Of a DNA stretch of 64,000 nucleotides, positions 9,253 to 34,863 are shown in pieces. Origin of the DNA: Prostheceraeus crozeri (taxonomy: Eukaryota; Platyhelminthes; Polycladida; Euryleptidae). Positions within the stretch are counted from its first letter, which is position 1. The number at the start of each line of letters is the position of its first letter. The notes beneath the pieces are model-generated. The model saw only the letters and a program-made list of their open reading frames with translations. It searched no databases and was not told the origin of the DNA. A program made the position numbers and the translations under genes. Where the stretch lies: positions 372,001 to 436,000 of the forward strand of contig CAJQUW010011532.1 in NCBI GenBank assembly GCA_907163375.1. The letters run 5' to 3'.

Positions 9253-10463
9253 CTTACTTACACACCAAGGAGTGTTCATCAAATCATGAAAACATCCAAT
9301 ATACCGGTCGGTCGGGTGGAACACGTGGATTCATGGGCCTACATAGTCATAGGTTAGAAAGTCTTCCTAACGATTGTCATCGATTCATCGCACACGCTAG
9401 CGATCAAGAGGTAGATAGACACGAAATTAGGAAAACAACGTTTCACCTCATCGGAAGGGCTCAGCGAAAGTGAATGAATAAAAAAATGTAAGAGCACGGA
9501 AATAATCGTAAGAACTAGGCAGCCAGTATCGTACCATATAATGAATACAAGAGATGGATATTCAAAAGTTGTTTAAGAAGTCAAGATTTGAGGAGGATGA
9601 ACTTAGTAGTACAAAATCGGCCAAAAAGGGGGCAATTGAATATTTTTTTGAACTTATGTAGCCATTTCTTAATGAATTAAAATAAGATGTGAAAATTGCT
9701 GAGATTTTAGCATTTTTAAAGAGGCCTTGTAATGAGCTATTTTTAAAAATATCTTTAAATATTTAATTTCGATTTTTTCGATGTAAGATTGAAGCAATGT
9801 TCATGTGGCATTTATGGTAGGGTGAATACAAGTCTATCTTCCATTAAACTAAGTTCGCATGAACTCAAATTAGTGAATTTTGGCTTGCGCTATAACAGTC
9901 ATTGAACAAAAGTTATGTCTTGAAGCTGAGGCAAATTCGGATTTTATTCTGCTTCAATTGACGCTAATTTGATTTCTTGAGACATCCATGTCCAGTTGCA
10001 GTCAGAGAGTGTAACACACATTTTTATCATTTCACTTCCAGGATCGAGCATTTGTCCGAGATAGAATATATTGCCCAAAACCAGGAGCGGGAAAAAGGAA
10101 TTCTTGAGCATTTATCTATCGAGACACATCTATCATACTGCCCAGAATCTGGATGGAATGAATTGAAAAAATGTCCTAAAATATGAAGGCAAAAAGAAAA
10201 CTTCTAGTTTAACTTAACGGTCGAGACACGTATGCGCATAATCTAGAAATAATAAATCGGAGAAATTCTCAAAAATACGTGGGTTAAAGAAAACGTAGCA
10301 TTTCCAGTGTTCTATCAAGTCAATATATGCATCCAAACAAGACTCGCACTCCGCTCAGATTGAGCAAACTGAAGAAATTCATACACAAAAAGCAGAAGCG
10401 GAGACAAGAAGATGTCGACCATCTAATGATCAAAACAAGTCTCATTCTGCCGAGATACAGTAA
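9253..10463. repeat. Diverged tandem-repeat region, no gene
   Basis: From about 10085 onward, units of roughly 110-170 bp recur with considerable divergence. Shared pieces resemble ATCGAGACACATCT, GGAGAAATTCTC and CTCATTCTGCC. The array continues to about 10710. The rest (9253-10084) shows nothing recognisable. Confidence 0.4.
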
Positions 10464-10617
10464 ATTGGTGAAATTCATTCCTCAAAAGAACTGGGATCGG
10501 GAAAATGCCGTTATGCTACTCGAGTACCTTTCTCTCACTAGGCATCAATGAAGTGCGATAAATTCTGAAAAATAGGAGACCTTAACCGCAAAAATAGGAG
10601 AAATTCTTAAAAAAGGA
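10464..10617. repeat. 154-bp direct repeat flanking the Penelope-like element, left copy
   Basis: This segment recurs in the same orientation at 33845-33998 with one mismatch by eye. The two copies bracket the split Penelope-like element. They may be its LTR-like (pLTR) repeats or a unit of the local tandem array captured on both sides. Confidence 0.8.
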
Positions 10618-11014
10618 GTAGGTAGAAGAAAGCGTCTACCATTAAATGATCGACGCATGTCTCTCACTCTGCCCAATTATGTCCCGGATTAGTCAAAATA
10701 TCAAAAATTTCACTGAATGAAGGCACCAATATTTTCGCCCTCTCAACGGCTTCGTCAGTGGTATGTGACACAGTGCGTGTATAACTCCTGCAAGCGCAGG
10801 ACAAATGGTAAATATTGATCAAACATTGTTATGAAAATCAATGTGGACACACGAGGCATATGATATGCTGTTACAGTTAGGTGACAAGAGATGTCTATGC
10901 CATAATTTCACAAAGATGACGCAACCGTAAACTTATTGTGATGAAGTAAATATAAAACAATAAAAGGACAAATAAGATAATAAACTATTGTCAACAGCGG
11001 ATGAAAATAGAAAA

Positions 11015-11373: not shown

Positions 11374-11379
11374 GTTGGC
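11374..11379. repeat. Polinton target-site duplication, left (GTTGGC)
   Basis: These six bases immediately outside the left terminal repeat are repeated exactly at 31763-31768. Six-base duplications are characteristic of Polinton insertion by its retroviral-type integrase. Confidence 0.95.
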
Positions 11380-11751
11380 AGTAGTTAGAATTGCGGACGC
11401 ACTGATAGTGGATGCGAACATGGATTGGAACATGTGTTCCGAATTGCCAATGCGAACATGTTCCGAATTGCCAATGCGAACATGGATATGAACATGTTCC
11501 GAATTGCAAATGGATGCGAACATGGATAGGAACATGTAAATAGGAACCGCGTTCCGATTGATAGGCGAATTGAGATCATACTCAATGATTCGGAACGGCT
11601 TGTTCCGAAATTGAATTAGAGTATGTGAATTAGAATAGGGATGCGAACATCTATTTCGGTACTTAAACAGGTGTTTGTTTTGAGACTGCTTGCTCGAATG
11701 CGACAATTGTGGCCATTGTGACTATGATGACAATTTTATTTATTTTCATAA
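11380..11751. repeat. Polinton left terminal inverted repeat
   Basis: This is the inverted copy of 31391-31762. Within it, a unit of about 24 bp resembling TTCGCATTGGCAATTCGG is repeated. ORFs read through this region are shadows of the repeat. The inner boundary is set where TATTTTCATAA is followed by unrelated sequence. Confidence 0.95.
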
Positions 11752-11785
11752 CTAGGTTAAGTTATAAATACGTAGAAGTTGCTTG

Positions 11786-12289
11786 ATGGTTAGTTTCCCA
11801 ATTTCATGGATTGTTGCAAGAGGCCTTGGTTATTCGCTAAAGGCTATAGAAACTGTTACAAATCTAAATGAAAATATCAAAGCTGGTGATTTAGTTGAAC
11901 GACTAATGGATCTGGATGAGCATACCATGAATGCTAAATTGGATCGTAGTTGGATAGAAGATTTCTCAATGCTACATTATAAAGACAGTGAAATTAGGAG
12001 GATGAAATTGGAACTTTCTGAAACGGAGATAAAAAAAGTGAAACCTTCAATTGATCTATCAAAATGTTCTAACAATGAAAGTGACTTCAGAAAGAAATTA
12101 GAAACAGAGACGTTTAAACTATTATGTGAACGGAACTGTATTAGGTGTTTTGAACGGGAAAAATCCCTTCTCTTCTTACCATGTTCTCATTTTGTCATGT
12201 GTTCTACATGCTATATACCCTTGGAAACTACATTTTGTCCCCTTTGTGATGAAGAAATAATTTCAACAGTCACTGTATATCGTTCATGA
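11786..12289 (+). CDS. UBA-like + RING finger protein resembling the IAP C-terminal half
   Basis: This 167-aa protein probably acts as a RING-type E3 ubiquitin ligase. The C-terminal RING has ligands C118/C121, C133, H135, C139/C142 and C151/C154, followed by the IAP-like ending TVTVYRS. Residues 9-44 (ARGLGYSLKAIETV..DLVERLMDLDE) resemble the UBA domain that precedes the RING in animal inhibitor-of-apoptosis proteins. No BIR domain is present, so direct caspase binding is not predicted. The ATG at 11786 is preferred over the TTG at 11783. It is the first gene inside the left TIR. By analogy with viral IAP or RING proteins it may modify host ubiquitin signalling, which is inference. Confidence 0.8.
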   Translation: MVSFPISWIVARGLGYSLKAIETVTNLNENIKAGDLVERLMDLDEHTMNAKLDRSWIEDFSMLHYKDSEIRRMKLELSETEIKKVKPSIDLSKCSNNESDFRKKLETETFKLLCERNCIRCFEREKSLLFLPCSHFVMCSTCYIPLETTFCPLCDEEIISTVTVYRS

Positions 12290-14474: not shown

Positions 14475-15110
14475 ATGACAGATTTTCGCCTATTCACTGA
14501 TCGCACAATGTGTGTGGCCGGACCAAGTCAGTCCGGTAAAACTACTTTTGTAACTCAATTACTACAATTTAGAAATGAGATGTTTAATAAAGAAATTAAA
14601 AGAGTTAAATGGTGTTATGGCATATTTCAACCACAACTACATTCTGCACTTCGCCAGAAAGGTTATGATGTGAAGCAAGGGTTACCGACAACTGAAGACA
14701 TCAAAGCAGGTGACTTACTAGTATTAGATGATCTATTACGTGAAAGCAAATCTTCAAAGGATGTAACTGAAATGTTCATTCAAACTGCACATCATAGGGA
14801 AGCTTTTATTATCTATATCACCCAAAACATTTTCGATGGAGGGAAAGAGCAAAGAACTAGGAGTTTGAATACACATTATTTGGCAATATTTAAAAATCCA
14901 AGAGACAGCAGTCAGATACATCATCTCAGTAGACAGATATTACCTCAACAACCTAAAGTTCTTTCAAAAATATATGAAGATGTAACTAAGAAACCACATG
15001 GCTATCTATTTATTGATCTAACCCAGGAATGTCCGGAACGACTTCGATTTCGAACAAATATCATACCTAATTCCGCTGAACCAATGACAGTTTTCTCGGT
15101 TCACAGTTAG
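14475..15110 (+). CDS. A32/FtsK-HerA-type genome packaging ATPase
   Basis: A 211-aa P-loop ATPase of the family that pumps DNA into icosahedral capsids in Polintons, virophages and large DNA viruses. Walker A is GPSQSGKT at residues 16-23. Walker B is LLVLDDLL with D85/D86. A sensor-like region TQNIF lies near residue 117. Length is typical for Polinton ATPases. The gene sits just upstream of the conserved protein at 15120 and the integrase, the usual Polinton neighbourhood. Confidence 0.9.
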   Translation: MTDFRLFTDRTMCVAGPSQSGKTTFVTQLLQFRNEMFNKEIKRVKWCYGIFQPQLHSALRQKGYDVKQGLPTTEDIKAGDLLVLDDLLRESKSSKDVTEMFIQTAHHREAFIIYITQNIFDGGKEQRTRSLNTHYLAIFKNPRDSSQIHHLSRQILPQQPKVLSKIYEDVTKKPHGYLFIDLTQECPERLRFRTNIIPNSAEPMTVFSVHS

Positions 15111-15830: not shown

Positions 15831-16157
15831 ATGTCGCTACAAAAGTTTTGCTGCTGTTTGAAATCTGCGCTCGAAGGTAAAGGAGAAGAGGGAATAGAGG
15901 TTGATATCAATTGTGTTAGCAGTTGCTGTGGGAGTAATACGCGTGCAAATCAGAACAAAGACGATGAGTACAGCAGTGAAACTCAGAAAGATTTATTACG
16001 ACTTAAATCACCCCGCAAGTTTCAGTCGTCCGGAGGTTCTAGCTCGTGCAGCAGGTGTGGGAATAGAGAAAGTCAAGAAGTGGTTAAGGAGTCAACCGAC
16101 TTACACTCTTCACAAAAATGCGAGAAAGCGGTTTCCAACGAGAAAATATGTTGTTAA
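15831..16157 (+). CDS. Possible small cysteine-rich protein overlapping the integrase
   Basis: This frame opens 133 bp upstream of the integrase start and runs over its first 190 bp in another frame. The non-overlapping N-terminal part has clustered cysteines (MSLQKFCCCLKSALEG, then VDINCVSSCCGS) of the kind seen in palmitoylated or metal-binding small viral proteins. The overlapped part is low-complexity and rich in Ser, Cys and Lys. It could be a real overlapping gene or a leader shadow. Confidence 0.4.
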   Translation: MSLQKFCCCLKSALEGKGEEGIEVDINCVSSCCGSNTRANQNKDDEYSSETQKDLLRLKSPRKFQSSGGSSSCSRCGNRESQEVVKESTDLHSSQKCEKAVSNEKICC

Positions 16158-17052
16158 CAATATAGATAGTCAATGGCAAGCGGACTTGGCTGACATGCAA
16201 CAGATATCACAGTACAATGATGGCTATAAATACATCTTAACCGTAATAGATATTTTATCTCGCTATGCTTGGGCACGTGCGCTGAAATCTAAACGAGGAC
16301 CAGAAGTTGAAGCGGCTTTTCAGAGCATTTTCGATGAGGGGCGTGTTCCGCAAAGAATACAGACCGATCAAGGGAAGGAATTCGAAAACTCTCATGTTCG
16401 AAGTCTCTTTAAAAGTCATAATGTGGAATTGTTTAGTGTCAAAAGTGCTTATAAAGCTGCCATGGTTGAGAGATTCAATCGCACACTGAAGACAAAAATA
16501 TGGCGCTATTTCACTGCAAAAAATACACATGTTTGGATAGGTGAGCTGCAGAAATTTGTTAAGAATTACAATGAAAGCTACCATCGAATCATTAAGATGA
16601 AACCTGTCGATGTTACCCCAGATAATGCGATGGATGTATGGCTTCGATTGTATGATAAGAAAGCGAAAAACATTTCCAATGAAAAGAAAATTAATGTTGG
16701 TGATAGAGTTCGGATTTCAAAGGTTAAGTCTACATTTGAGAAGGGGTATCTACCTAATTGGACTGAAGAAGAGTTTTTTGTAGATGAAGTAAATACAAAA
16801 TTTAGACCCACCATGTATAAATTAATAGATTACCATGGCAATCCAATTGAAGGAAAATTTTACTCTTATGAATTGCAAGTAGTAGACAGAAGTGAAGAGG
16901 TGTATATGATTGACAAAATAATTAGGAGGAAAGGTCATGGCAATCAAAGGAAATATCTAGTTAAATGGAAAGGATATCCTGATTCATTCAATAGCTGGAT
17001 AACGCACCAGGATCTACAAAATGTGGAGGTGGGAGACACTCGTAACTTTTAA
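15964..17052 (+). CDS. Retroviral-type DDE integrase with C-terminal chromodomain
   Basis: A 362-aa integrase that joins the element's ends to target DNA and creates the 6-bp duplication. An N-terminal helix-turn-helix region (residues 20-45) precedes the RNase H-fold core. The catalytic triad is D74 in QADLADM, D135 in QTDQGKEF and E169 in AAMVERFNR. A C-terminal chromodomain (about residues 310-355, YLVKWKGYPDSFNSWI) may bind methylated histone tails and bias target choice. The ATG at 15964 is chosen because homology begins with the HTH region; an in-frame ATG at 15901 also exists. The frame is intact. Confidence 0.93.
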   Translation: MSTAVKLRKIYYDLNHPASFSRPEVLARAAGVGIEKVKKWLRSQPTYTLHKNARKRFPTRKYVVNNIDSQWQADLADMQQISQYNDGYKYILTVIDILSRYAWARALKSKRGPEVEAAFQSIFDEGRVPQRIQTDQGKEFENSHVRSLFKSHNVELFSVKSAYKAAMVERFNRTLKTKIWRYFTAKNTHVWIGELQKFVKNYNESYHRIIKMKPVDVTPDNAMDVWLRLYDKKAKNISNEKKINVGDRVRISKVKSTFEKGYLPNWTEEEFFVDEVNTKFRPTMYKLIDYHGNPIEGKFYSYELQVVDRSEEVYMIDKIIRRKGHGNQRKYLVKWKGYPDSFNSWITHQDLQNVEVGDTRNF

Positions 17053-19206: not shown

Positions 19207-20490
19207 ATGCAGAGTATCAATTCGGCTTTGTGTTTCTTCGATTCACCACCTCATCAAACTGACATTATTTCCTCAACTATTGTTGATATAGTCCCCACAA
19301 CAAATATCGATGGTAACCAACAGCCTATTCAGTTTGATATACCTGGTAATCCTCAAGATTATATTGACTGTCAATCCATTGATTTAGAATTGTGTATACA
19401 AATTAAGAAGACTGATGGTACCAATATTGATTCAACTAAGGATAAAGTGGGATTGACAAATCTTCCTATTGCCAGTCTATTCTCAGATGTGTATTTAATA
19501 TTGAATGACAAACAGATTGAAGGAGGGGATCGAGCATATCCCTATGGAGCATACATAAATACAATGACGCAATTTCAGAAGCAAGCTAAACAGTCACACT
19601 TGCAAGTTGCCGGCTGGTATGATGATCAGCAAGGGAAATTTGATGAGGTTTCAAATGGAGGTTTAAAAAAACGAATGGAATGGACAGCAGATTCAAAGGA
19701 ATTATACTTGAAAGGACCTGTCTATCTTGATTTCCTTCGTCAATCTAGATATCTACTATCACAGGTTAAAATGCAAATAAAATTTATTCGTGCAAATCCT
19801 GAGTTCGCGTTAATGGCTTTTGGAGCTACAAACTATCAAATCAACATAAGTAGTGCCGTGCTCAATGTAAGGAGAGTAACAATGAACCCGTCAGTCATCA
19901 ACGAGCATGCGACAGGATTGAGGAAAAGCAATGCAATATATCCAGTTAATCACAGTGTGTTAACAAACTTCACAATTGGTGCGGGATCATCCTCTCATGC
20001 CTACCCAAATCTTTTTCCCACTGCGATGCCGAAGGCGGTGTATATCACATTTGTGGAAAATGAGTCATTTATTGGTGCTTTTGAAAAGAATCCATTTAAT
20101 TTCCAACACTTTAACGTTAGTAAACTAGCACTCTATCAGGATGGAAAATTTGTTGCTTGCAAAGCTTATGAGCCTAATTTTAAAGAGGGTAAATTTGCAC
20201 GTGAATATGGTTCTACTTTCACTGCACTGAGCATGTTTAACACAGATGATTCAAATGGAATTACAATGGATATGTATAAAAATGGTTACTTCTTCATTAT
20301 ATACAATCTCACAGCAGATGCAGATCTAGGCGGTGAAAGCGTAGGAGTTACAAAGCCTGGTAATCTACGACTAGAGGTGTCATTTGAGTCACCTTTGAAG
20401 AAAACAATTACTTGCCTCATTTATGCTATCTATGATAGCAAAGTTGAAATAACGAGAATGCGAGACGTAACTGTCAGCTATCAGAGATGA
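19207..20490 (+). CDS. Putative major capsid protein (double jelly-roll type)
   Basis: A 427-aa protein with a beta-rich sequence and conserved-looking segments: PIQFDIPGNPQDYIDC near residue 40, LILNDKQIEGGDRAYPYGAY near 95, NPFNFQHFNVSKLALYQDGK near 300, and LRLEVSFESPL near the end. The layout suits two consecutive jelly rolls, and the family is widespread in animal Polintons. It lies just before the protease; the stop codon overlaps the protease ATG (ATGA), so the two may be expressed together. The assignment as major rather than minor capsid protein is inference. Confidence 0.7.
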   Translation: MQSINSALCFFDSPPHQTDIISSTIVDIVPTTNIDGNQQPIQFDIPGNPQDYIDCQSIDLELCIQIKKTDGTNIDSTKDKVGLTNLPIASLFSDVYLILNDKQIEGGDRAYPYGAYINTMTQFQKQAKQSHLQVAGWYDDQQGKFDEVSNGGLKKRMEWTADSKELYLKGPVYLDFLRQSRYLLSQVKMQIKFIRANPEFALMAFGATNYQINISSAVLNVRRVTMNPSVINEHATGLRKSNAIYPVNHSVLTNFTIGAGSSSHAYPNLFPTAMPKAVYITFVENESFIGAFEKNPFNFQHFNVSKLALYQDGKFVACKAYEPNFKEGKFAREYGSTFTALSMFNTDDSNGITMDMYKNGYFFIIYNLTADADLGGESVGVTKPGNLRLEVSFESPLKKTITCLIYAIYDSKVEITRMRDVTVSYQR

Positions 20491-20948
20491 GTAACTTAAG
20501 CAACATACAAATCTTGAGGAAAATGGGAAATGCTCATCCCTACTCCAAGTCAATATTTCTTGATGTCTTTTCTAGAGATAATTTACCTAATTCAATTCCT
20601 TTCTATCCTTGTTCGCTTATCATCAATACGGACAGCAACAATCTTCCTGGTAAACATTGGGTTGCAGTGTACATCAATCGCTGTAAAGTGGCTGAATATT
20701 TTGACTCTCTTAATCTACCTCGCTTACATGACATTGCATTATGGATGAATAGGTTCTCCTGGACGATTAAGAAAGTTACATCGTTTCCACTTCAAAGCAA
20801 TGTATCTCTCATGTGCGGCGGTTATGTGCTATATTTCATCAACGAGAGACCATTGAAAAATAACTGTAAAAGTGTTTTACAACTTTTTTCGAAAGACTGC
20901 TATAAAAATGATGTAATTCTTACAAAGTATATTGAAACTGTTTTGTAA
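20487..20948 (+). CDS. Adenain-type cysteine protease (Polinton PRO)
   Basis: A 153-aa C5/Ulp1-like protease that is expected to mature capsid and core precursors. The catalytic residues are visible in the canonical order His-Asp-Gln-Cys: H57 in GKHWVAVY, D73 in EYFDSL, Q103 in PLQSNV and C110 in LMCGGY. The start overlaps the stop of the capsid gene by 4 bp. An AATAAA directly overlaps the end of the frame (20948 onward), marking the end of the plus-strand block, which converges with the minus-strand genes. Confidence 0.9.
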   Translation: MSNLSNIQILRKMGNAHPYSKSIFLDVFSRDNLPNSIPFYPCSLIINTDSNNLPGKHWVAVYINRCKVAEYFDSLNLPRLHDIALWMNRFSWTIKKVTSFPLQSNVSLMCGGYVLYFINERPLKNNCKSVLQLFSKDCYKNDVILTKYIETVL

Positions 20949-21079: not shown

Positions 21080-21649
21080 CTACAATGTAGATTTCACAAA
21101 TATTTTTCTCAAATCACATAGGATGGGAGGAACATCATTTATGTCTTTAATGCCGGTTATCACAATCTTTCCATTATGGAATACATGAACATGATATGGG
21201 TGCCAGTTAGTCATCTGTGCTGCTGGAAATAGTTCCACTTCATAAGTGAGATTATTTGATGATGTGACTTTACGAAAGTCATAATGATAGTTCAATTCAC
21301 ATAACACAGTCATTGTCTTCACTTCCCATTCAGATAATGAGTCACTAAGTAAATTTTCCAACGTAGAATGTAGATATGGTAGATCACCATCAGTGAAGCC
21401 ACCAACACACTGGATTGTTCCATTTGGAAAGAATAGGATAGTCACATATTTATCCTTCCTCTGTATCCTCCATGTTAACATTGAGGGTCTTCCCAGATGT
21501 AGATTCGTTGTCGGCTTCATCTTGTGTTTTATTAATAACCATTGCTTTCGATTGGGAATGTTCCGCTCGATTTCTTGAAGATTGAGTTTTGAGTTTACTT
21601 TTGTAGTTAACATGCGATTCACGACTTCCATCCGCTTGATGTCCTCCAT
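21080..21649 (-). CDS. TATA-binding-protein-like two-repeat protein
   Basis: A 189-aa protein, close in size to the 180-aa TBP core, that appears to hold two copies of a TBP-type repeat. Repeat 1 (about residues 8-103) runs VVNRMLTTKVNSKLNLQEI, then ILFFPNGTIQCVGG. Repeat 2 (about 112-186) runs MTVLCELNYHYDF, then VHVFHNGKIVITG. The pattern of an N-terminal strand, a hydrophobic strand ending in a Gly-containing turn and 'TG/GG', and a C-terminal helix matches the TBP saddle. Identity to cellular TBP looks low. A CRE-type TGACGTCA (21704-21711) lies 55 bp upstream. It would direct transcription from the element's TATA boxes, which is inference. Confidence 0.6.
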   Translation of the reverse strand: MEDIKRMEVVNRMLTTKVNSKLNLQEIERNIPNRKQWLLIKHKMKPTTNLHLGRPSMLTWRIQRKDKYVTILFFPNGTIQCVGGFTDGDLPYLHSTLENLLSDSLSEWEVKTMTVLCELNYHYDFRKVTSSNNLTYEVELFPAAQMTNWHPYHVHVFHNGKIVITGIKDINDVPPILCDLRKIFVKSTL

Positions 21650-21703
21650 CCTTAATAAATGAAATCATATGTGGTAGTATCTCTTTTGTAAAGTTTCTCC
21701 ATG

Positions 21704-21711
21704 TGACGTCA
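21704..21711. promoter_or_regulatory. CRE/ATF-type site TGACGTCA upstream of TBP-like gene
   Basis: A perfect palindromic CRE lies 55 bp before the TBP-like start codon. An identical site lies 61 bp before the polymerase start. Confidence 0.5.
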
Positions 21712-21791
21712 CTGAAACGGAAAAATCGATAGTCAATATCTTCTCTCTTTGGTGAACAGACGTATAGCTTGACGGTAGAGTCACACTTTAT

Positions 21792-22073
21792 TCATACCTT
21801 TTGATCGAGGGGAATCTTCATCCGTGTCTTATGGTTGTCAATCAGATCAGCGAAGTCTTTCAGTGAAGGTAATGCGTCAAGGCTAATGCAAACGCCACGA
21901 TGTTTTCCACCACTATTTGTTATTAAGTGACGAAAGACTAATTTCTTAGAATTTGTTATGTGAATGCTTTGTGAGTCATTTAATTTCCATGTTCTAATGT
22001 AATGAGGCATGTTTTCAAATATAAACCTAAATTTATTTGTTTGCATAAAGCTTGCTATTTTACATCTCAACAT
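21792..22073 (-). CDS. Small PC4-like (transcriptional coactivator p15) protein
   Basis: A 93-aa protein. Residues 29-82 (TWKLNDSQSIHIT, KKLVFRHL, RGVCISLDALPSLKDFADLI) follow the PC4/p15 layout of short beta strands, an 'I-R'-like strand, a turn, 'G-I-S-L' and a final helix. PC4 binds single-stranded DNA and bridges activators and TBP in eukaryotes. Lying between the polymerase and the TBP-like gene on the same strand, it could serve replication or transcription. The match is by eye and needs a profile search. Confidence 0.45.
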   Translation of the reverse strand: MLRCKIASFMQTNKFRFIFENMPHYIRTWKLNDSQSIHITNSKKLVFRHLITNSGGKHRGVCISLDALPSLKDFADLIDNHKTRMKIPLDQKV

Positions 22074-22242: not shown

Positions 22243-25200
22243 TTAAATTTCTTGAACTTCTACGTCACCTGTAGCAGGAAGGCATCTCCTTCTCTTTGAA
22301 GGTGGGGGAAGACCTAAACTATAGTGTCCATATGGTAGAGATAGATTTTTATTTAACCAACAGCGCTTATCCTCCCAAAGTGAAAGTCCTCGCTTTCTAA
22401 ATGATTTTGTAGTGACTACGTGATTTGTTGAATTTATAATTGTCATTTCCTCATTTGTATCTTTCTCACTGTAGTACACAGTCCTATAATCATTATGTTG
22501 TAATTTTTTAACTGCAGCTCTCTGCACTCCTTTTGCCCGCTTGATGCTATCACAAGTTGAATCTAGATATTTCATTGAATACATTTTTGGTTTTAGCAAG
22601 ATCATTTCCTCAAGCAACTTTCCCGCACACTCATCCTTAAAACAACCTAATCTGGCTCTGTTTGTTACTGAGTATAGTCGGTGATGACTGTCATAGTTTG
22701 AAGAGTCAAATTTTTCACCGAAATATAGCAGTACATCCTCCAGGCTGACAGATGGTGAGGTGTACAAACATAGGAAAAAACTATCGGTATCACCTCCACA
22801 AAGCCGCGTTCTATTTATCAGTGGACATCTTTTTAAATCATTGTAGTATAACTGGTACATTTCCAATTTGCTGTAGTCAAGTACCACTTGACCAACATAA
22901 ATCAATTTATTCAACATTATTGAAGGTTTATACATTTCCATACCAACTAGATCTTCATCAAATATCTTATGCTGTACATAGAAAGGATGATTTGATAATT
23001 TTCGACATTGTTCCACGCTGTTTACTAATTTGAATTTTCTCCTTCGTCTTACATTTTCCATTGTTTTACCATATAAAGAATTATTTTTCAACTTATAAAA
23101 TGACTTTTCAAAGTTGGTACTTGATTGAGCTCTCTTTTGTGAATTCATATCAATGTACGTTCTCAACCATGGCTTTTGTGTGAACTTTATACCGTTGTGA
23201 ATTTCTGTGATTTTCATACCCATGGATAAATAAAATTTTAATATTGAATAGTGTACAACATAATTCTCCATATTGAATTGATGAAGCAAGAGTTTTTTAG
23301 TTGAACTGAATTTAGTGTCTGGTCTTATTTTCCTATGTAAATCCTTCATATAAGTTGAGAACATATTTTGCTCTACGGTCTGCATCTCTGGCGCTAATGG
23401 GAAATCGGCAGTGTCATCATGTATGTTTGCAGGATATTCTAAGTTCAAATCAAAAATATAGCCAATTTCACCATCATCATCGATAGCTTGTATATTTTCT
23501 TCGTTTAGAAAATAGCTTACTTCACTATCACTCAACCATTTAAAATTTGAATGTGGTAGACTCTTACTGAGCGAAGAACCGTAAAGGTTATTGACATCAA
23601 TGTAAGATAAGTGACGACTTTCATTTGTATTATTTTGTAATTCCGAAATGCGTGCACGTGCTCTGTGAATGTTCGTAAAAGTCATTCCACCCCTTATTCC
23701 CCTTTCGAAGAGATTATACATACTTTCGTCTTGTATGTAGTGTGGAGGATCATTAGATGTCAAATTTAAAGCTGAAGTAAAGCTAAGATGTGGAAGGCTA
23801 ACGAAATGGACAGGATCTACTTCATCTTCACTTTGACTTAGTGACCTAAAAACTTCAAAAATATCTGTCAGTAATAATACATCCAGTTTCAAATATGTAA
23901 GCATGTAATCACCAAAATTGTTACAATTGAAAGCAAACCACGCATTACTAGCGTGCTTATATTCTTCATCTGAACAATGTTCACGAGTGAGATCATTATA
24001 AAATTCACATTGTGGTGGCAGACATTTTTCTGACAATGTATTTAGACTTTTGAAATAACAGTAGGGAAACACTCCCTTTTGATAAAGAATATCATCTGTT
24101 AACAGGGGAAATTCATTTCTTAGTTTTTCTACATGTTCATAAACTTGCAATCCTCTTACTAACTCACTCAATGATGCACTTAAAAATTGATAAGAATCTA
24201 AGAATTTTAACTTGAAGTAGATTGTTTTTCCTTTGTATTCGTTTACAGGGACGCTGGCGGATAGAGTTATATACTTTTCAGCTGTTGCTGCTACTACTTC
24301 CAATTTCCATGACTTCTTCTTTCCAATTGCTTTATAGCAAACGATATGACTATCATAATTCTTAAAATTATGGAAGAAGATGGGTAGTTCCCGCCTATTT
24401 TGTTTTAATCGAAGATTGCATTTACTGCATATTGTTTGTCTATATCTTCCTGTTAAATGGTCGTGATCTCTTACTTTTATGCAATCATCACTAAATACAG
24501 CTTTACATTTATTACAATTTTTTACATTTTTATGTTTTTCTTCTTCATCAGAAGAAAGAGACATTGGTTGCCGGCTTATTGCACGCTGATTATCATATAA
24601 GTTTTGAGCTATATTTTCTAGGTGATCCAAGAAGTCCATAATACAATTCTCTCCTTTGAAGACATAATATTTGTTTTCAAATCTGGACTGGAGAGCTTTA
24701 TGCCAAACATGATAAACACCAACTGCTGCCGGTTTGTGTACTTTATTATCGATGTAGCACTCTATATCTGCATAAACAACTAAAGGAGGACTTAATTGAT
24801 ATTCCATGCTACTTGTGCTTACCTCTAGTTGTTTAGGCATTCTTTCTATTTGTGCCTTTCCACGAACACAAAATTGATAATGTCGCTTCAAAGTTGTCTT
24901 ATATGTAAACGATTGGGTACATCGATCGCAGAAATGTTTATATCTTCTATTTATTTTTCTATATAATCTTGATAGTTTTCTGATTCCACAATAGTGTGCA
25001 CGTTCATTGTTTATAATTAGTAGTATATTCACAGTTCGTTTACCAATAAAGTTGCTGCTATATCGAACACCTTTTAGTCCTTTTTCGTAAAGGTGAATGT
25101 TGATTTTAATGTCATTATTTTTCTCAAACTTAGGAATATCTTTAATTGATACGGGTGTAGAGATGTCATTCATATTTAGTTCAGATGTCCATTTACTATA

Positions 25201-26151
25201 TGATTTTATCTCATTCCTAGAATATGATACATCATTGTAATGTAGCATTGATAGAACTGAATACAAGAAACAGTCATTTGCATTTGAATGTACATTAATT
25301 ACAGCCTTCGAATCTTTCAAACTCTTTGGTAGATTAAATACTTCTCCACCAGAAAGTAATGGACTAGTAATAACATTGAATTCTATATTTAGTATTTCAT
25401 CTATAACCCAATTGCTACCCTTATTTGCAAAAGCTTCAATATGACTTGAGAGACTATTTAAGTTATCTTGGAACCATGTATCATAGTCATAAATATAGTT
25501 TGTGGATGATGAAGTAAAGTGTGCGAGAAACGTTTCATCTTCCTGAGGATTTGATCGCACATAACGAATTTTTGCTACCAGACGACCACGTAGTTGAAAA
25601 TTTTCTAGAAGGTTTGTCACTAAGTTCTCTAATATAGATCGCATACTTAATAAAAAGGAAGTTATATCTACTGTGTGTGCTGATGGTGTGATGTCGTATA
25701 CACGAGCATGACCGTTGAGCGCGCTTTCGCTGAGACTTACAGTTCCATGATTATTTTGAATATTCATCTCACTATTTGTATTATGCATATTCATATGCTG
25801 ACGGAATTTGCTTATAGAATTATACGTTTTACCACAGCGGGAGCAGCATTGCATAAAGATCAAACTATTATTTGAAGCGCTGATTGGTACATGTCTAGAC
25901 GTTGATTCAGCAGTACTAGATTTGGGTATTTCACTATCATTAGCTGAGATACTTCGAGGATTTGAATTTAAATTACAATTACTTGGTTGCTTATCACAGA
26001 CTAGATTGTGTCGCTTTAGATTATCCTGTCGTTTCGTTTCATATGGACACTTCCTACACTGATAAGTTTTTCCTAACTTACAAAACTTTTCATGGCGTTG
26101 CAAATTACTATTAAGAGTAAACGTTTTTCCACATTTAGAACAGACAACCAT
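22243..26151 (-). CDS. Protein-primed family B DNA polymerase (pPolB) with N-terminal zinc fingers
   Basis: A 1302-aa replicase of the Polinton pPolB type. C2H2 fingers lie at about residues 4-23, 32-51, 103-122 and 408-428. A conserved segment NDCFLYSVLSML..SIKDIPKFEKNNDI (292-350) precedes the catalytic part. The exonuclease motifs are D462-I-E464 (ExoI), FHNFKNYDSH around N595/D600 (ExoII) and YLKLD around Y753/D757 (ExoIII). A Cys/His insertion with CNKC and RDHDHLTGRYR (546-578) looks like a zinc-bound HNH-type fold. Polymerase motif A is YIDVNNLYG (D852), motif B is KLKNNSLYGK (about 1020-1029) and motif C is GGDTDSF (D1121, D1123). All motifs are intact. Four classical fingers upstream of the polymerase are more than usual. 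Confidence 0.95.
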   Translation of the reverse strand: MVVCSKCGKTFTLNSNLQRHEKFCKLGKTYQCRKCPYETKRQDNLKRHNLVCDKQPSNCNLNSNPRSISANDSEIPKSSTAESTSRHVPISASNNSLIFMQCCSRCGKTYNSISKFRQHMNMHNTNSEMNIQNNHGTVSLSESALNGHARVYDITPSAHTVDITSFLLSMRSILENLVTNLLENFQLRGRLVAKIRYVRSNPQEDETFLAHFTSSSTNYIYDYDTWFQDNLNSLSSHIEAFANKGSNWVIDEILNIEFNVITSPLLSGGEVFNLPKSLKDSKAVINVHSNANDCFLYSVLSMLHYNDVSYSRNEIKSYSKWTSELNMNDISTPVSIKDIPKFEKNNDIKINIHLYEKGLKGVRYSSNFIGKRTVNILLIINNERAHYCGIRKLSRLYRKINRRYKHFCDRCTQSFTYKTTLKRHYQFCVRGKAQIERMPKQLEVSTSSMEYQLSPPLVVYADIECYIDNKVHKPAAVGVYHVWHKALQSRFENKYYVFKGENCIMDFLDHLENIAQNLYDNQRAISRQPMSLSSDEEEKHKNVKNCNKCKAVFSDDCIKVRDHDHLTGRYRQTICSKCNLRLKQNRRELPIFFHNFKNYDSHIVCYKAIGKKKSWKLEVVAATAEKYITLSASVPVNEYKGKTIYFKLKFLDSYQFLSASLSELVRGLQVYEHVEKLRNEFPLLTDDILYQKGVFPYCYFKSLNTLSEKCLPPQCEFYNDLTREHCSDEEYKHASNAWFAFNCNNFGDYMLTYLKLDVLLLTDIFEVFRSLSQSEDEVDPVHFVSLPHLSFTSALNLTSNDPPHYIQDESMYNLFERGIRGGMTFTNIHRARARISELQNNTNESRHLSYIDVNNLYGSSLSKSLPHSNFKWLSDSEVSYFLNEENIQAIDDDGEIGYIFDLNLEYPANIHDDTADFPLAPEMQTVEQNMFSTYMKDLHRKIRPDTKFSSTKKLLLHQFNMENYVVHYSILKFYLSMGMKITEIHNGIKFTQKPWLRTYIDMNSQKRAQSSTNFEKSFYKLKNNSLYGKTMENVRRRRKFKLVNSVEQCRKLSNHPFYVQHKIFDEDLVGMEMYKPSIMLNKLIYVGQVVLDYSKLEMYQLYYNDLKRCPLINRTRLCGGDTDSFFLCLYTSPSVSLEDVLLYFGEKFDSSNYDSHHRLYSVTNRARLGCFKDECAGKLLEEMILLKPKMYSMKYLDSTCDSIKRAKGVQRAAVKKLQHNDYRTVYYSEKDTNEEMTIINSTNHVVTTKSFRKRGLSLWEDKRCWLNKNLSLPYGHYSLGLPPPSKRRRCLPATGDVEVQEI

Positions 26152-26166
26152 GTTTATTAAACTGGT

Positions 26167-26219
26167 GAGGATTATAATTTTGCAGACTATATATATATTT
26201 TTATCATCCTATGACGTCA
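26167..26219 (-). promoter_or_regulatory. PolB promoter: CRE, TATA box and TAATCCTC motif
   Basis: On the minus strand a perfect CRE TGACGTCA (26219-26212) is followed by a TATATATATA stretch (about 26197-26188) and TAATCCTC (26174-26167), then the ATG at 26151. The TAATCCTC motif recurs near the expected start site of the two right-end genes. Confidence 0.55.
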
Positions 26220-26326: not shown

Positions 26327-28219
26327 TTACAACTTTTGACACTTTATCATGTCACTGTGTGAGAGTTTCACATACTGGCACTGCTCGCAACAGTCGGACG
26401 TTTCCTCCATCCGAGTCAATCTAACTCGTGAAATGAGACCTTCACGATATACGATGTGCATCAGTGTCTCACGTTTGAATTGCCTATTGCCTCGGGCTAC
26501 AGAAGAGGACAATAGCAAGTTTGACTGTGTCAAATTGCGAACAGACACAATCAAACCCCTATTCTCCTCCCTGAGCTTGCTCTCCCGCTGTTCAGCCATC
26601 CGAAGTCGTTGCTGGCACAACTTGAGTTTCTCCTCCAGTCGCTCATCACCTTCTAACGTTTCGTCAAGGTCCACATTATATTCCCGCAGAGGTAATGGAG
26701 CGGGAGCAGGAACAGGGACCGGATCGGGAGTAGGAGCAGGATCAGGAAAAGGGACTGGAGCGGGAGCAGGAGCAGAAGCAGGATTAGAAGAAGGGATCGG
26801 AGCGGGAGCAGGAACAGGTGACGTAGTAGGAGCTCGTGGTGGTGTGAGAACTCCTCGATGTTCGAGGATCGGCGTGAAAGGAAGCCGAGCGCTACAGTTT
26901 GGCGACGCCCGGATCCGCGAGATGGAAATCTCTTGAGATGCGAAATCAATCACATGCTGAAATGAGAAGAAATAATTGTTTACTATCTATATGTCCTTAT
27001 AATGAGGAAAGAGCAATATAGATCTAACAAAATTTATAAAAATCATACCTCAGGAGTGACACTTGACGGATTGTCCCGAAACGAATTGTTCTGAAAATAG
27101 ATAACACTGCTATAATTTTGAACCACATTTAACAAGAGAAATCATGAGATTTAGTTAATAATTATGTTATGTAGTTATCGTTAATTTCGATACTTACAAG
27201 AGAGCGTCTTGTGTCATCCTCATCAGAAGATGATGTCGCCGATGACGTAGTGGACGTCTCATCCGATGAAGACTCCCGTATCGTGTACGGACGCTCTTCA
27301 TTGTCCTCAACTGATGTGGTCGTAGCCGGAGTTGAGGTGATGCTAGCAGCTCTGGATTTTTTCAGGGATAGGGATCGCATTACCTGAAGCGGTAGAAAAA
27401 GATAGAATGTTAACTGAGCAAATGGATGATGTATGATACATTAACAAGTGACGAGAGGGACTTATGAAAACGACTATAACAACTGTACTTACGGGACGTG
27501 GAGTACTTGACTCTTCTACCGCACTCAGCTTGGGAACCGGTGGTAGAATTTTGAACAGCTGCAAAGAGAATTAACGCATTATTATACATTGAGGGTGATT
27601 AATTTTTATCAACATGTCTTACATTTTTCACTTGAGGCAACTGTTTGTCAACCTTTGTCTTCTTCTTCGCTGGAGGCCTCTCACACTGAAATGTTTTTGA
27701 AAAGTTAAATTTACTTCATACATAACGAAACAAATGTTCTTAACATCAATCATTTTTATTTTAAATTTAACTTGTACAGTTATCGGAACTCACCTCTAGA
27801 TCGCTTGATGAAGAGTCACTATCAATGAATGCTCTTGATTTGAACTTTTGCTTTCTTTTTGTGGGAGGTTTTGCTGGTTCGGAACATTGGCTGAGTACTC
27901 CCTCTGCAGCCCTATCCTCCTTCGCGAAAAGCCTTGCCAATTTACTTTTTTCATCCTTTGAGGTTAAATTGCGTCCACCTCTGCCGTTTTCCTGCGCGCA
28001 GGATGCGTGTCTTCTGATGAAATCCTTAGACTTGTCGTCATTTGCCATTTCCGTGCTTCGCACGTAGGACCGACAGGTGAGGCAATATACGTAGGTGCAG
28101 CCCTCCTTAAAAGTACACTCCTTGTGACCACTTTTACTGGCATGTCTCACCGGCTGCTTACATGTTTCACAAAAGTGAAATATTAACCGCTGGCGTGCGA
28201 GGCTTGCATGACGAACCAT
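26327..28219 (-). CDS. Intron-containing Polinton gene, six coding exons, zinc-binding N terminus and coiled-coil C terminus
   Basis: I do not recognise this protein. The proposed coding exons are 28219-27794, 27685-27623, 27558-27493, 27383-27198, 27090-27049 and 26956-26327. Every junction has a GT donor matching GTRAG-type consensus and a pyrimidine-CAG acceptor. Each exon length is a multiple of three, so all introns are phase 0. The product would be about 470 aa. Its N terminus has a Cys/His cluster (FCETCKQPV, HKECTFKEGCTYVYCLTC) likely to bind zinc, followed by acidic Ser-rich stretches. The last exon encodes a long Pro-Ala repeat, then a coiled coil (EEKLKLCQQRLRMAEQRESK) and a CCEQC motif. 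Spliced genes are unusual in Polintons. Transcript evidence is lacking. Confidence 0.75.
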
Positions 28220-31390: not shown

Positions 31391-31762
31391 TTATGAAAAT
31401 AAATAAAATTGTCATCATAGTCACAATGGCCACAATTGTCGCATTCGAGCAAGCAGTCTCAAAACAAACACCTGTTTAAGTACCGAAATAGATGTTCGCA
31501 TCCCTATTCTAATTCACATACTCTAATTCAATTTCGGAACAAGCCGTTCCGAATCATTGAGTATGATCTCAATTCGCCTATCAATCGGAACGCGGTTCCT
31601 ATTTACATGTTCCTATCCATGTTCGCATCCATTTGCAATTCGGAACATGTTCATATCCATGTTCGCATTCGCAATTCGGAACATGTTCGCATTGGCAATT
31701 CGGAACACATGTTCCAATCCATGTTCGCATCCACTATCAGTGCGTCCGCAATTCTAACTACT
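31391..31762. repeat. Polinton right terminal inverted repeat
   Basis: An inverted copy of 11380-11751, the same length, with one substitution seen (31670). The outer end reads CTAACTACT. Confidence 0.95.
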
Positions 31763-31768
31763 GTTGGC
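31763..31768. repeat. Polinton target-site duplication, right (GTTGGC)
   Basis: It matches 11374-11379 exactly. Confidence 0.95.
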
Positions 31769-33998
31769 GTAGGGGATTAGAAGTCTGGCCAACGTAAGAG
31801 ACTCCACATTGAGTACATCTCACGACATAGATGCAGCAATACGAGTTACACGATCAATTGTATAGAATGGCATGGGAGCGTGTGGCGTCAGAGTCCTTGA
31901 ATGTTGAGCACTCGCGAGCAAACTGACAAGCACCACAACGAGGGCCTTCGCATTTCTTGAAGCCTGGGGTCCAAGAGGTGGTGAAATTTGTGAGTCTGAG
32001 AACCCGACGCCAAGCTGAACGAATGGCAGTACGAGTTATGCCTGAAGAGAGCCAGACAGGAAAGACAGTGCGACACGTACCATCGAAGTCCGCACGAGTC
32101 GAGGATCGAGTGGCCCATCTGAGGATCTGGGAGAAGATAACACCCTGGTGTACATGGGCAGGATAGTGAGAGTCGATTGGCAAAATTTGGTGGCGAGCTG
32201 TATCTTTGAAGCCGATTCTGTGGGCAAGATGGCTAGATAAAGAACGATAAATTTCAACATCCAAGTATCGTATTGAATATGCATGCTGCTGAAGATCAAC
32301 TTGGATATGTGGATCGACTGAGTTAAGATGTAGAAGGAAATCGCGCAGAGTGTTAGGTCCATGATCCCATACCGCGAAGATATCGTCTTGGAATCGAACC
32401 CACATGCTGGGACATAAGTCAGATGATGATAGAGCAGATGACTCCCACTCGCCGAGATAAATATTGGCAAATGAGCCGCCAAATGCTTTCCCCATTGCGA
32501 CTCCTGATACCTGGAGATATCGCTCTTCTTGGAAAACGAAGTCGTTGCCCTCGAGCGAAAGGTGAAGGAGTTGTAAAAATATCTTCATTCGGTCGGCGAA
32601 GATCAGGATATCGTGAAAAGGCTCGAGAGACACGTTGAATGCCTTCGTTTATAGGAACGTTGGTATAGAGCGAGCGAACGTCAAACGTACATAGGAGTGA
32701 GTCATGAGATATCCGATGATCGCGGAGAATTGCAACAAGATGCTGGGTGTCAAGGAGAAAACTTGGAAGGCGTTTCGCTATAGGAAAGAGGAAAAATTCA
32801 ATCATGCGAGCGATGTTACTTGAGTTGGTAGAAACGTCGGCGACAATAGGTCTTCCGGGTGGCATGTTTGGGGTAGGCCAGGAGGACTTGTGTATCTTAG
32901 GTAGAATACGGAAGCGCCTTTCGTTGGGATGAATGGGTGGTGACAGGAAGCGGTAATCCTTTTGAGAAATAAAGCCCGATGAGCTAAGATTGGTGAGGAT
33001 ACGATTGAATATGTTATTGGAGTCAGGAACAGGATGAAGCAGACGAGTGTAGAAGTCTTGATCTGACAGAAGTCTCACACATTCATCGCGATAGTTGTCT
33101 CAGTATCTAAGATAATCCACTTTCCACCTTTGTCTGCGGGAAGCACGGTGATGTCAGAATTTTGAGCAAGGGAAGTTAGCGTCTCAGTTTCACTTGCAGA
33201 AAGATTGTGAGAAACAAAACAAGAGTGTTCATCAAAAAGTATGGAACGTGCAGCGGAAATGATGCGATTACTAAGACTATGGATGTTTGAGGATACAAGG
33301 CCGTGAGGAGGCCATGCTTGAGACGGTGTTGTACCGAAGCGGCATGGGACTGAGTTCCAAGAGCTATTGCGTAGACACGAAGTCCACTGGAGTTTGCGTA
33401 AGAAGTCGATGACGTAACGAAAGGCTGAGGCATGATTGCAATGATTAGGGGTTGGGATAAACGTGGTGGGCCTATTTAGCAAACTGCGGAGTTCAAAAGA
33501 AGTAGGCATAGACGATGAAAGGTTGCACGTCGAATTGATCATTTGGGTTGTAAGCCTCCCGAAAGCTAGTTTAAATGCGTCGTGACTTTTGCAAACATTT
33601 GAGACCTCGTACTCACTTCCCACATGTTGTTTGATGAGTGGAACGGATGGGGAGCAGCAAGAACGACACAATTGGAGGGATGCTTGTTCCTCACCGATGC
33701 AGAAAGTTCTTGATGAATAGCGCGTTCTGTCGCAGAGAAAGATTCCGTGACGCCTGTCAGTAAGACGAATAGAGTCGTATTTGGGAATAACTGATGACAT
33801 CTCGCCAGTAAACTACTCAAAGTTGTGAAGTTTGTAACAAGTCTATTGGTGAAATTCATTCCCCAAAAGAACTGGGATCGGGAAAATGCCGTTATGCTAC
33901 TCGAGTACCTTTCTCTCACTAGGCATCAATGAAGTGCGATAAATTCTGAAAAATAGGAGACCTTAACCGCAAAAATAGGAGAAATTCTTAAAAAAGGA
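31769..33998 (-). pseudogene. Penelope-like retroelement: reverse transcriptase and first half of GIY-YIG endonuclease
   Basis: Minus-strand remnants of a Penelope-like element. From its 5' end they include the N-terminal signature ITVLPADKGGKW (about 33140), then RT motifs TFDVRSLYTNVP (about 32690), SGVAMGKAFGGSFANIYLGEWE (about 32460-32510) and RFQDDIFAVW (about 32375). Zinc-like GPRCGACQFA (about 31935) and the GIY-YIG start follow. The frame is broken by shifts near 33090 and 32620 and an in-frame TGA at 31854-31856, so the copy is dead apart from the Polinton insertion. The endonuclease continues at 11373 and downward. A 154-bp direct repeat lies at its 5' end (33845-33998). Confidence 0.88.
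33845..33998. repeat. 154-bp direct repeat flanking the Penelope-like element, right copy
   Basis: It matches 10464-10617 in the same orientation with one mismatch by eye. Confidence 0.8.
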
Positions 33999-34863
33999 AT
34001 AATAGGTCTATGAGGCCTGCAACTACATAGTTGCAGAACATTTTTAGTTCTGTGCAACATGACGAAATTTACACTAAAAACATTGCTTACAGTATTAAAA
34101 TTAATTTTTTGTGGGTTTATCTAAGTGCTGCACCCAATAAACATGTCAATAAATGCACTAAGAGTTTCTGCAGGGAATAGCTACCGTTGACTTCTGTGTT
34201 TGGCAAAATAAATGCGGAATTCTGGAAGTCCTGTAGCACACAAAAATGAAGACGAAGTGAAACAAGAGCATGTTATATTTCGTAGTTGACTCATGCTTAA
34301 CAGTTCATGGAAAATTTGTTTATTACATTATCATTAGATTTGTTGAAATGAATGTTGCTGTGTACAAAATATTTTCTCTATCCTGTGTGTTTAAAAACGA
34401 GCTTAAGTCCTCCTTTTGCACTTCCTTCACCATAGTGATGTTAAGTAATCAATTCCTCATACTGGGGTGACACATGTTTTACAAAAGCGTTTATATCGTC
34501 CACTCACTATTTTATCGCTTTATAGGGACAACAAACCTCAAGACGCTCCATTAGAACGAAAAGTGATAGTGTGAAATGGATCGACATCACATCGTGAGAA
34601 GCGACTTAACAGCGAGAAGACAATGTCCATTTATAATGATTTCCAAAATCCACCTACAATGAACGGGCTGCGCAACATCGAATGCGTTCGTCATTTTCAA
34701 TATCTCATCAGCAAATGATGATGACGTCACCGATGATGTGCTCATTTTTTATCTTCATCATTTCATCTCATTACTCATTTCATTCATCATACCATTCATC
34801 TGTAATGTTTACGCCAACATTGGCGCAATAAACGCTTTTTAACTTTTGACTTTTGACTTTCAA
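33999..34863. other. No gene seen
   Basis: AT-rich DNA. Around 34745-34860 there are (TCAT)n-like and CTTTTGA repeats resembling a retroposon tail, but no body is recognisable upstream. Confidence 0.35.

Follow-up and report, generated by a model that had tools for sequence, protein, structure and literature searches.

Does a mobile element of 20 kb carry its own basal transcription proteins? The question is raised by a 64,000-nucleotide stretch of the Prostheceraeus crozeri genome (contig CAJQUW010011532.1; hereafter the window), in which an earlier note, made from the letters alone, had seen two adjacent minus-strand open reading frames (ORFs) of a Polinton and read them as a TATA-binding protein (TBP) and a PC4-like protein. 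Both ORFs are present, at 21080..21649 (189 residues) and 21792..22073 (93 residues), and a complete Polinton of 20 kb encloses them. Its terminal inverted repeats of ∼372 bp (11380..11751, plus strand, and 31391..31762, minus strand) have arms that are 100% complementary, its ends read AGTAGTT...AACTACT, and both flanks carry the 6-bp target duplication GTTGGC (11374..11379 and 31763..31768). Long inverted repeats with a 6-bp target duplication, together with a retroviral-type integrase, are hallmarks of Polinton/Maverick elements, as are a protein-primed family B polymerase and a double jelly-roll major capsid protein, for which the element has candidates. The analysis demonstrates a two-repeat TBP core that is under purifying selection and resides in a mobile element; a second Polinton family also encodes it, again beside a homologue of the partner gene.

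The 189-residue protein is a duplicated TBP domain. Pfam matches it to PF00352 (TBP) in two tandem stretches (E = 4.6e-14), NCBIfam matches residues 5-177 to the TATA-box-binding protein (E = 1.1e-8), and an AlphaFold model (predicted local distance difference test, pLDDT, 81.9) contains the TBP order of strands and helices twice, as a saddle fold with internal duplication. The two motifs quoted in the earlier note are the equivalent strand-turn elements of the two repeats. In structure searches with the model, all 44 hits that Foldseek gives at E ≤ 0.001 are TBPs, as are the top 38 VIA rows, and the best matches in BFVD are giant-virus TBPs. A direct hhalign comparison of repeat 1 with repeat 2 is weak (E = 0.032, probability 1.6%); the duplication is taken from the Pfam stretches and the AlphaFold model. 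The TBP claim has thus withstood the searches that could have overturned it, by returning no TBP match or a fold without duplication, and a complete but divergent two-repeat TBP is strongly supported. Scans of viral_contigs with the TBP, the TBP alignment, the capsid and the polymerase ORF returned no relatives.

Structurally, the protein departs from cellular and archaeal TBPs (PF00352) in several respects. It is encoded by a mobile element, its identity to human TBP is 19-22% (a range that covers both Polinton families), and the window's family carries an insertion within repeat 1, with one phenylalanine and some base contacts changed. Alignment to human TBP nevertheless places an intact E-x-E-L-F motif, which we take to be the TFIIB-contact stirrup, in both families, along with three of the four phenylalanines presumed to intercalate into DNA. 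The window and the six further element copies of this genome that were aligned all keep the E, E and L of the stirrup; P0002, a relative from outside this genome, has D in place of the second E. Among the residues presumed to contact bases, the threonine of the second-repeat TG motif is kept, as is the first-repeat asparagine in the window. The 16 homologues are partly non-independent, since P0001 is the window's own protein and P0003 resembles the form at locus L074.

The element is abundant in its host. A search of the 2.05-Gb genome (14,165 contigs) found at least 150 TBP copies with 99-100% protein identity (150 scored of 10,521 first-look candidates), and an internal stop is absent from 149 of these 150. 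Among ten copies checked at both ends, six have a complete 6-bp target duplication that differs from copy to copy (the element ends of one of these six contain 3-4 mismatches); of the remaining four, one agrees over the five bases visible in the stretch covered. The differing duplications indicate that the copies are independent insertions carrying the TBP gene. Judged by substitution ratios, this gene evolves under purifying selection between diverged copies: the ratio of nonsynonymous to synonymous divergence (dN/dS) is 0.13-0.23 across six comparisons of diverged loci, for example 0.081/0.498 (window and L073), 0.170/1.258 (window and L074) and 0.058/0.250 (L081 and L084), with dS above 1.2, near saturation, in three of them. 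The TBP is also intact in 48 of 48 closely examined copies, with 23 synonymous to 16 nonsynonymous changes; these copies were chosen by TBP score and both counts are biased toward an intact TBP, a bias that affects dN/dS between diverged loci less.

A second Polinton family was located by searching the host genome with human TBP. Besides the TBP gene of the host itself (two exons, 85-86%) and one TRF-like gene (42%), this search recovered at least 147 further places at 24-28% identity. Five of these were read (L080-L084). Four contain an intact TBP ORF of 181 residues (L081-L084) and in L080 it is interrupted; in all five a partner-gene ORF of 162-222 residues (222 in L081 and L084) overlaps the TBP gene. 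Beyond, on the opposite strand, lie ORFs that by eye resemble the window's capsid candidate, and two of the five loci (L080 and L081) have a convergent protease ORF (Peptidase_C48 E = 0.0062 in L081). The TBP of L081 matches Pfam at E = 2.2e-20, and its flanks contain a polymerase, recognized by motif, and an integrase (rve, 8.6e-12); unlike the window, L081 has a capsid-type ORF between the polymerase and the partner gene. The TBPs of the two families are 31-35% identical to each other and have in common the motifs FPNGT, FPAA and FHN (FHT in L083), which are absent from human TBP, and we take the Polinton TBPs to be one old lineage. The partner proteins are 16-25% identical along the domain region. 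Whether the gene pair is a conserved module was a question of the earlier note; the overlap of TBP with homologous partners in the two families supports such a module. In family 2 the partner gene occurs twice in succession ahead of TBP (L081:757-1149 and 1134-1799; L084:711-1112 and 1137-1802), against a single partner in the window's family.

The partner gene itself is interrupted in the window. The 93-residue ORF exists, but it is only the first part of the gene: beyond the stop the frame continues open for about 112 codons, and in 30 of 48 other copies it reads through as 207 residues. In one subfamily the partner is 186 residues long in nine of ten copies, starting internally (MPHY) at residue 22 of the 93-residue ORF, and L073, a lineage with an 84%-identical TBP, likewise has 186 residues from an internal start. 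Because it is read in both, the 186-residue form is probably the real partner protein. The interrupted gene spans 21451..22010 (minus strand; probable start 22010), in a frame open in other copies and in both families. The final third of this gene runs into the beginning of the TBP gene, which is read in a different frame. Over the first 120 codons, dN/dS is 0.117/0.351 (L003 and L073) and 0.083/0.243 (L081 and L084); the codon-usage score of the 93-residue ORF is ambiguous (0.007, against a wrong-frame mean of −0.118 and a true-frame mean of 0.112). A short intron at the stop, on a GT...AG reading, was considered but not retained, since the frame passes this position without interruption in most other copies.

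Whether the partner is PC4-like, as the earlier note proposed, is evenly balanced. The kinds of search that identified the TBP gave no PC4 match here. PF02229 (PC4) found none of the partner proteins at E ≤ 10 (a human PC4 control scored 4.6e-25), a single-sequence fold model of the 93-residue stump is poor (pLDDT 55) and has no structure match, and a profile built from the partners of both families found nothing in the PDB at E = 10. Single-sequence PC4 scores are within noise, ranking 10 and 16 of 222 window ORFs and being equalled by 21 of 300 residue shuffles. These results speak for a partner that belongs to an unrelated family of small Polinton proteins, a reading to which we give the same weight as to PC4. 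What speaks for PC4 is the two-family profile, whose hhalign alignment to PC4 is colinear and covers 48 of the 65 PC4 positions, with a strand pattern and strand-helix signature like those of PC4/Sub1, at a score that none of 100 column shuffles reaches. The first domain scores 19.3 (shuffle maximum 18.7, E = 0.0023, hhalign probability 12.5%) and the whole profile 18.9 (shuffle maximum 15.9, E = 0.0084, probability 4.8%), where the profile consists of six sequences and E = 0.002-0.008 holds for one comparison. The low hhalign probabilities (5-13%) favor an unrelated family, as does the second segment alone, whose score is reached by 14 of 100 shuffles. The partner would also differ from PC4/Sub1 in its architecture, as it appears to hold two such segments per chain, followed by a polar tail that overlaps TBP, and it has no match in Pfam or the PDB. 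The PC4 suggestion thus survives only through the two-family profile.

What would such a protein do for a transposon? With somewhat better than an even chance, in our estimate, the divergent but complete TBP serves as the element's own promoter-recognition factor. It would bind element promoters through the retained DNA-kinking phenylalanines, and the conserved stirrup would dock host TFIIB. Since a Pfam scan of 19 element ORFs gave no match to any RNA polymerase family, the TBP most likely recruits host TFIIB and RNA polymerase II (Pol II) to these promoters, bringing the polymerase to a chosen set of element genes, which may be those for late virion proteins. Its overlapping partner may be a tandem PC4-like cofactor that binds single-stranded DNA and could help promoter opening or, alternatively, tie transcription to replication. 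The gene content suggests that the element may choose, through TBP and its partner, which of its own genes are switched on, and the control over which promoters fire that the earlier note had envisaged is plausible. We entertain more tentatively a fuller version, in which animal Polintons run their own two-gene preinitiation module: an altered-contact TBP and a tandem PC4-like cofactor would have host Pol II read a separate promoter class in a timed program. In a 20-kb transposon that has become abundant in its host, such a module would parallel, in minimal form, the TBP system of herpesvirus late genes.

Candidate promoter sequences fall into two groups. The TAAGCWA/TAAAGCTAA motif lies 5' of or just inside seven of the 11 plus-strand genes (13028, 14428, 15114, 15798, 17050, 19194 and 20497, all on the plus strand). 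TAAGCAA is found in five of the 11 start windows of plus-strand genes, a count reached for any 7-mer by one of 1000 shuffles, and the left half of the element has seven TAAGCWA sites on the plus strand and none on the minus strand (shuffle mean 1.7, maximum 6 among 500); the motif was noticed before testing and the start windows were chosen afterwards. The protease-gene site is kept in L003, L007, L069, L070, L072 and L073. At the capsid gene the distance from motif to ATG is 13 nt, which leaves too little room for a TATA box ∼30 nt upstream of the transcript start. Several other element genes are preceded by TATATAAG or TATATATA boxes (12337, plus; 13525, plus; 30840, minus; 30902, plus), and the polymerase ORF is preceded by a further such box near 26190. 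Close to these boxes are TGAGTCA/TGACTCA or TGACGTCA sites (12290, 13508 and 26212), and the two together could mark a host-type (early) promoter class.

Several observations weigh against a dedicated promoter-recognition factor. One of the four intercalating phenylalanines is lost, the first-repeat threonine is replaced by V, I or L, and the second-repeat asparagine is replaced by threonine in the window (family 2 retains it); with these replacements, DNA binding is not assured. As for the partner gene, the search recovered only a 132-residue part of its frame in the more diverged L074 and, with the patterns used, none in L076. As a late promoter, TAAGCWA was rejected as not robust, the protease-gene site being lost in L074 and L076 and nothing clear emerging as a late-promoter motif in family 2.

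The changed contacts lend themselves to another explanation, in which the TBP is a decoy or competitor: instead of firing element promoters, it would damp host transcription or defense by binding to TFIIB, to further partners of TBP or to TATA boxes of the host. That the partner-binding stirrup is kept while part of the DNA-contact set has changed speaks for this explanation. A protein decoy, however, would need neither both repeats nor three of four intercalating phenylalanines, and in two families the TBP gene is accompanied by another gene whose product putatively binds nucleic acid; we consider a decoy unlikely. A somewhat smaller chance falls to a role outside transcription, in replication or integration, as a DNA-bending protein that binds origins or element ends; conservation of the TFIIB stirrup in both families argues against it, as does the capsid-type gene that in family 2 separates the polymerase from the partner. 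A recently captured host TBP without function in the element is already disfavored and very improbable: the host does possess a TBP and a TRF-like gene to capture, but the Polinton TBPs are closer to each other than to human TBP, have motifs in common across both families and show low dN/dS.

Adenoviruses, virophages and giant viruses are regarded as kin or descendants of Polintons, and to our knowledge little has been established about how they order gene expression. The herpesvirus proteins ORF24/UL87/BcRF1 are TBP-like and are used for late genes, in viruses without their own RNA polymerase; they are large, comprise several domains and work together with further factors of the virus. The Polinton protein is like them in being a TBP-like protein without its own RNA polymerase (the BFVD search ranks BcRF1 from a macaque gammaherpesvirus 50th, E = 8.6e-4), and it differs in being a bare TBP core with one partner gene. 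It would represent another viral takeover of Pol II through TBP, here in a far less complex system, and a TBP in a 20-kb element without visible RNA polymerase would place Polintons among the smallest virus-like systems with their own promoter-recognition factor. Because the gene recurs in two families, in at least 150 and at least 147 places in one genome, promoter binding and transcript starts are directly testable.

Virus-encoded TBP folds are also found in giant viruses and mirusviruses, the former supplying the best BFVD matches. According to the portions available of the respective papers, TBP occurs in 59% of mirusvirus genomes (PMC10132985), TATA-binding proteins occur in viral elements of another kind, which have neither a polymerase nor a jelly-roll capsid gene (PMC10675990), and one giant virus encodes RNA polymerase subunits beside its TBP (PMC11464507). 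The 20-kb Polinton shows no such subunit among its 19 scanned ORFs. Those portions do not place a TBP in a Polinton; an earlier description is possible, as the subscription literature lay outside the search. In a word search of papers on Polintons and related elements, the word TATA is absent from PMC11071296, PMC11071308, PMC4028283, PMC4642659, PMC8097293, PMC10120064, PMC3671162, PMC8363768 and PMC7805220.

Among the element's other genes, on the plus strand, an integrase with a chromodomain lies at 15901..17052 (rve E = 1e-12, Chromo E = 1.4e-9), and a P-loop ORF at 14475..15110 is a candidate packaging ATPase (AAA_14 E = 7.9e-5, under the Pfam cut-off), a role assigned by inference. The ORF at 19207..20490, which has no sequence match in Pfam or the PDB, we take from its position to be the major capsid protein candidate. 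A protease candidate (20487..20948; Peptidase_C48 E = 0.0077, under the Pfam cut-off) is convergent with the TBP gene. On the minus strand, 22243..26151 encodes a 1302-residue family B DNA polymerase candidate with C2H2 fingers (zf-C2H2 E = 3.7e-8) and an Endonuclease VII-like insert (Endonuclease_7 E = 3.2e-5); its polymerase motifs were read by eye, and Pfam and the PDB gave no polymerase match.

An ORF near the left end (11783-12289, plus strand) has a C-terminal RING finger (Pfam E = 1.6e-10) and is possibly a ubiquitin ligase. In 26327-28219 (minus strand), pyrimidine-rich stretches ending in CAG or ACAG precede two ORFs, so that some genes in the element's right part may be spliced. Just outside the element, a 162-bp direct repeat (98% identical) flanks it at 10459-10620 and 33840-34001. 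Elsewhere in the window, an inverted repeat of 391 bp at positions 382-1788, with arms 99% complementary and separated by 625 bp, may be a small DNA transposon.
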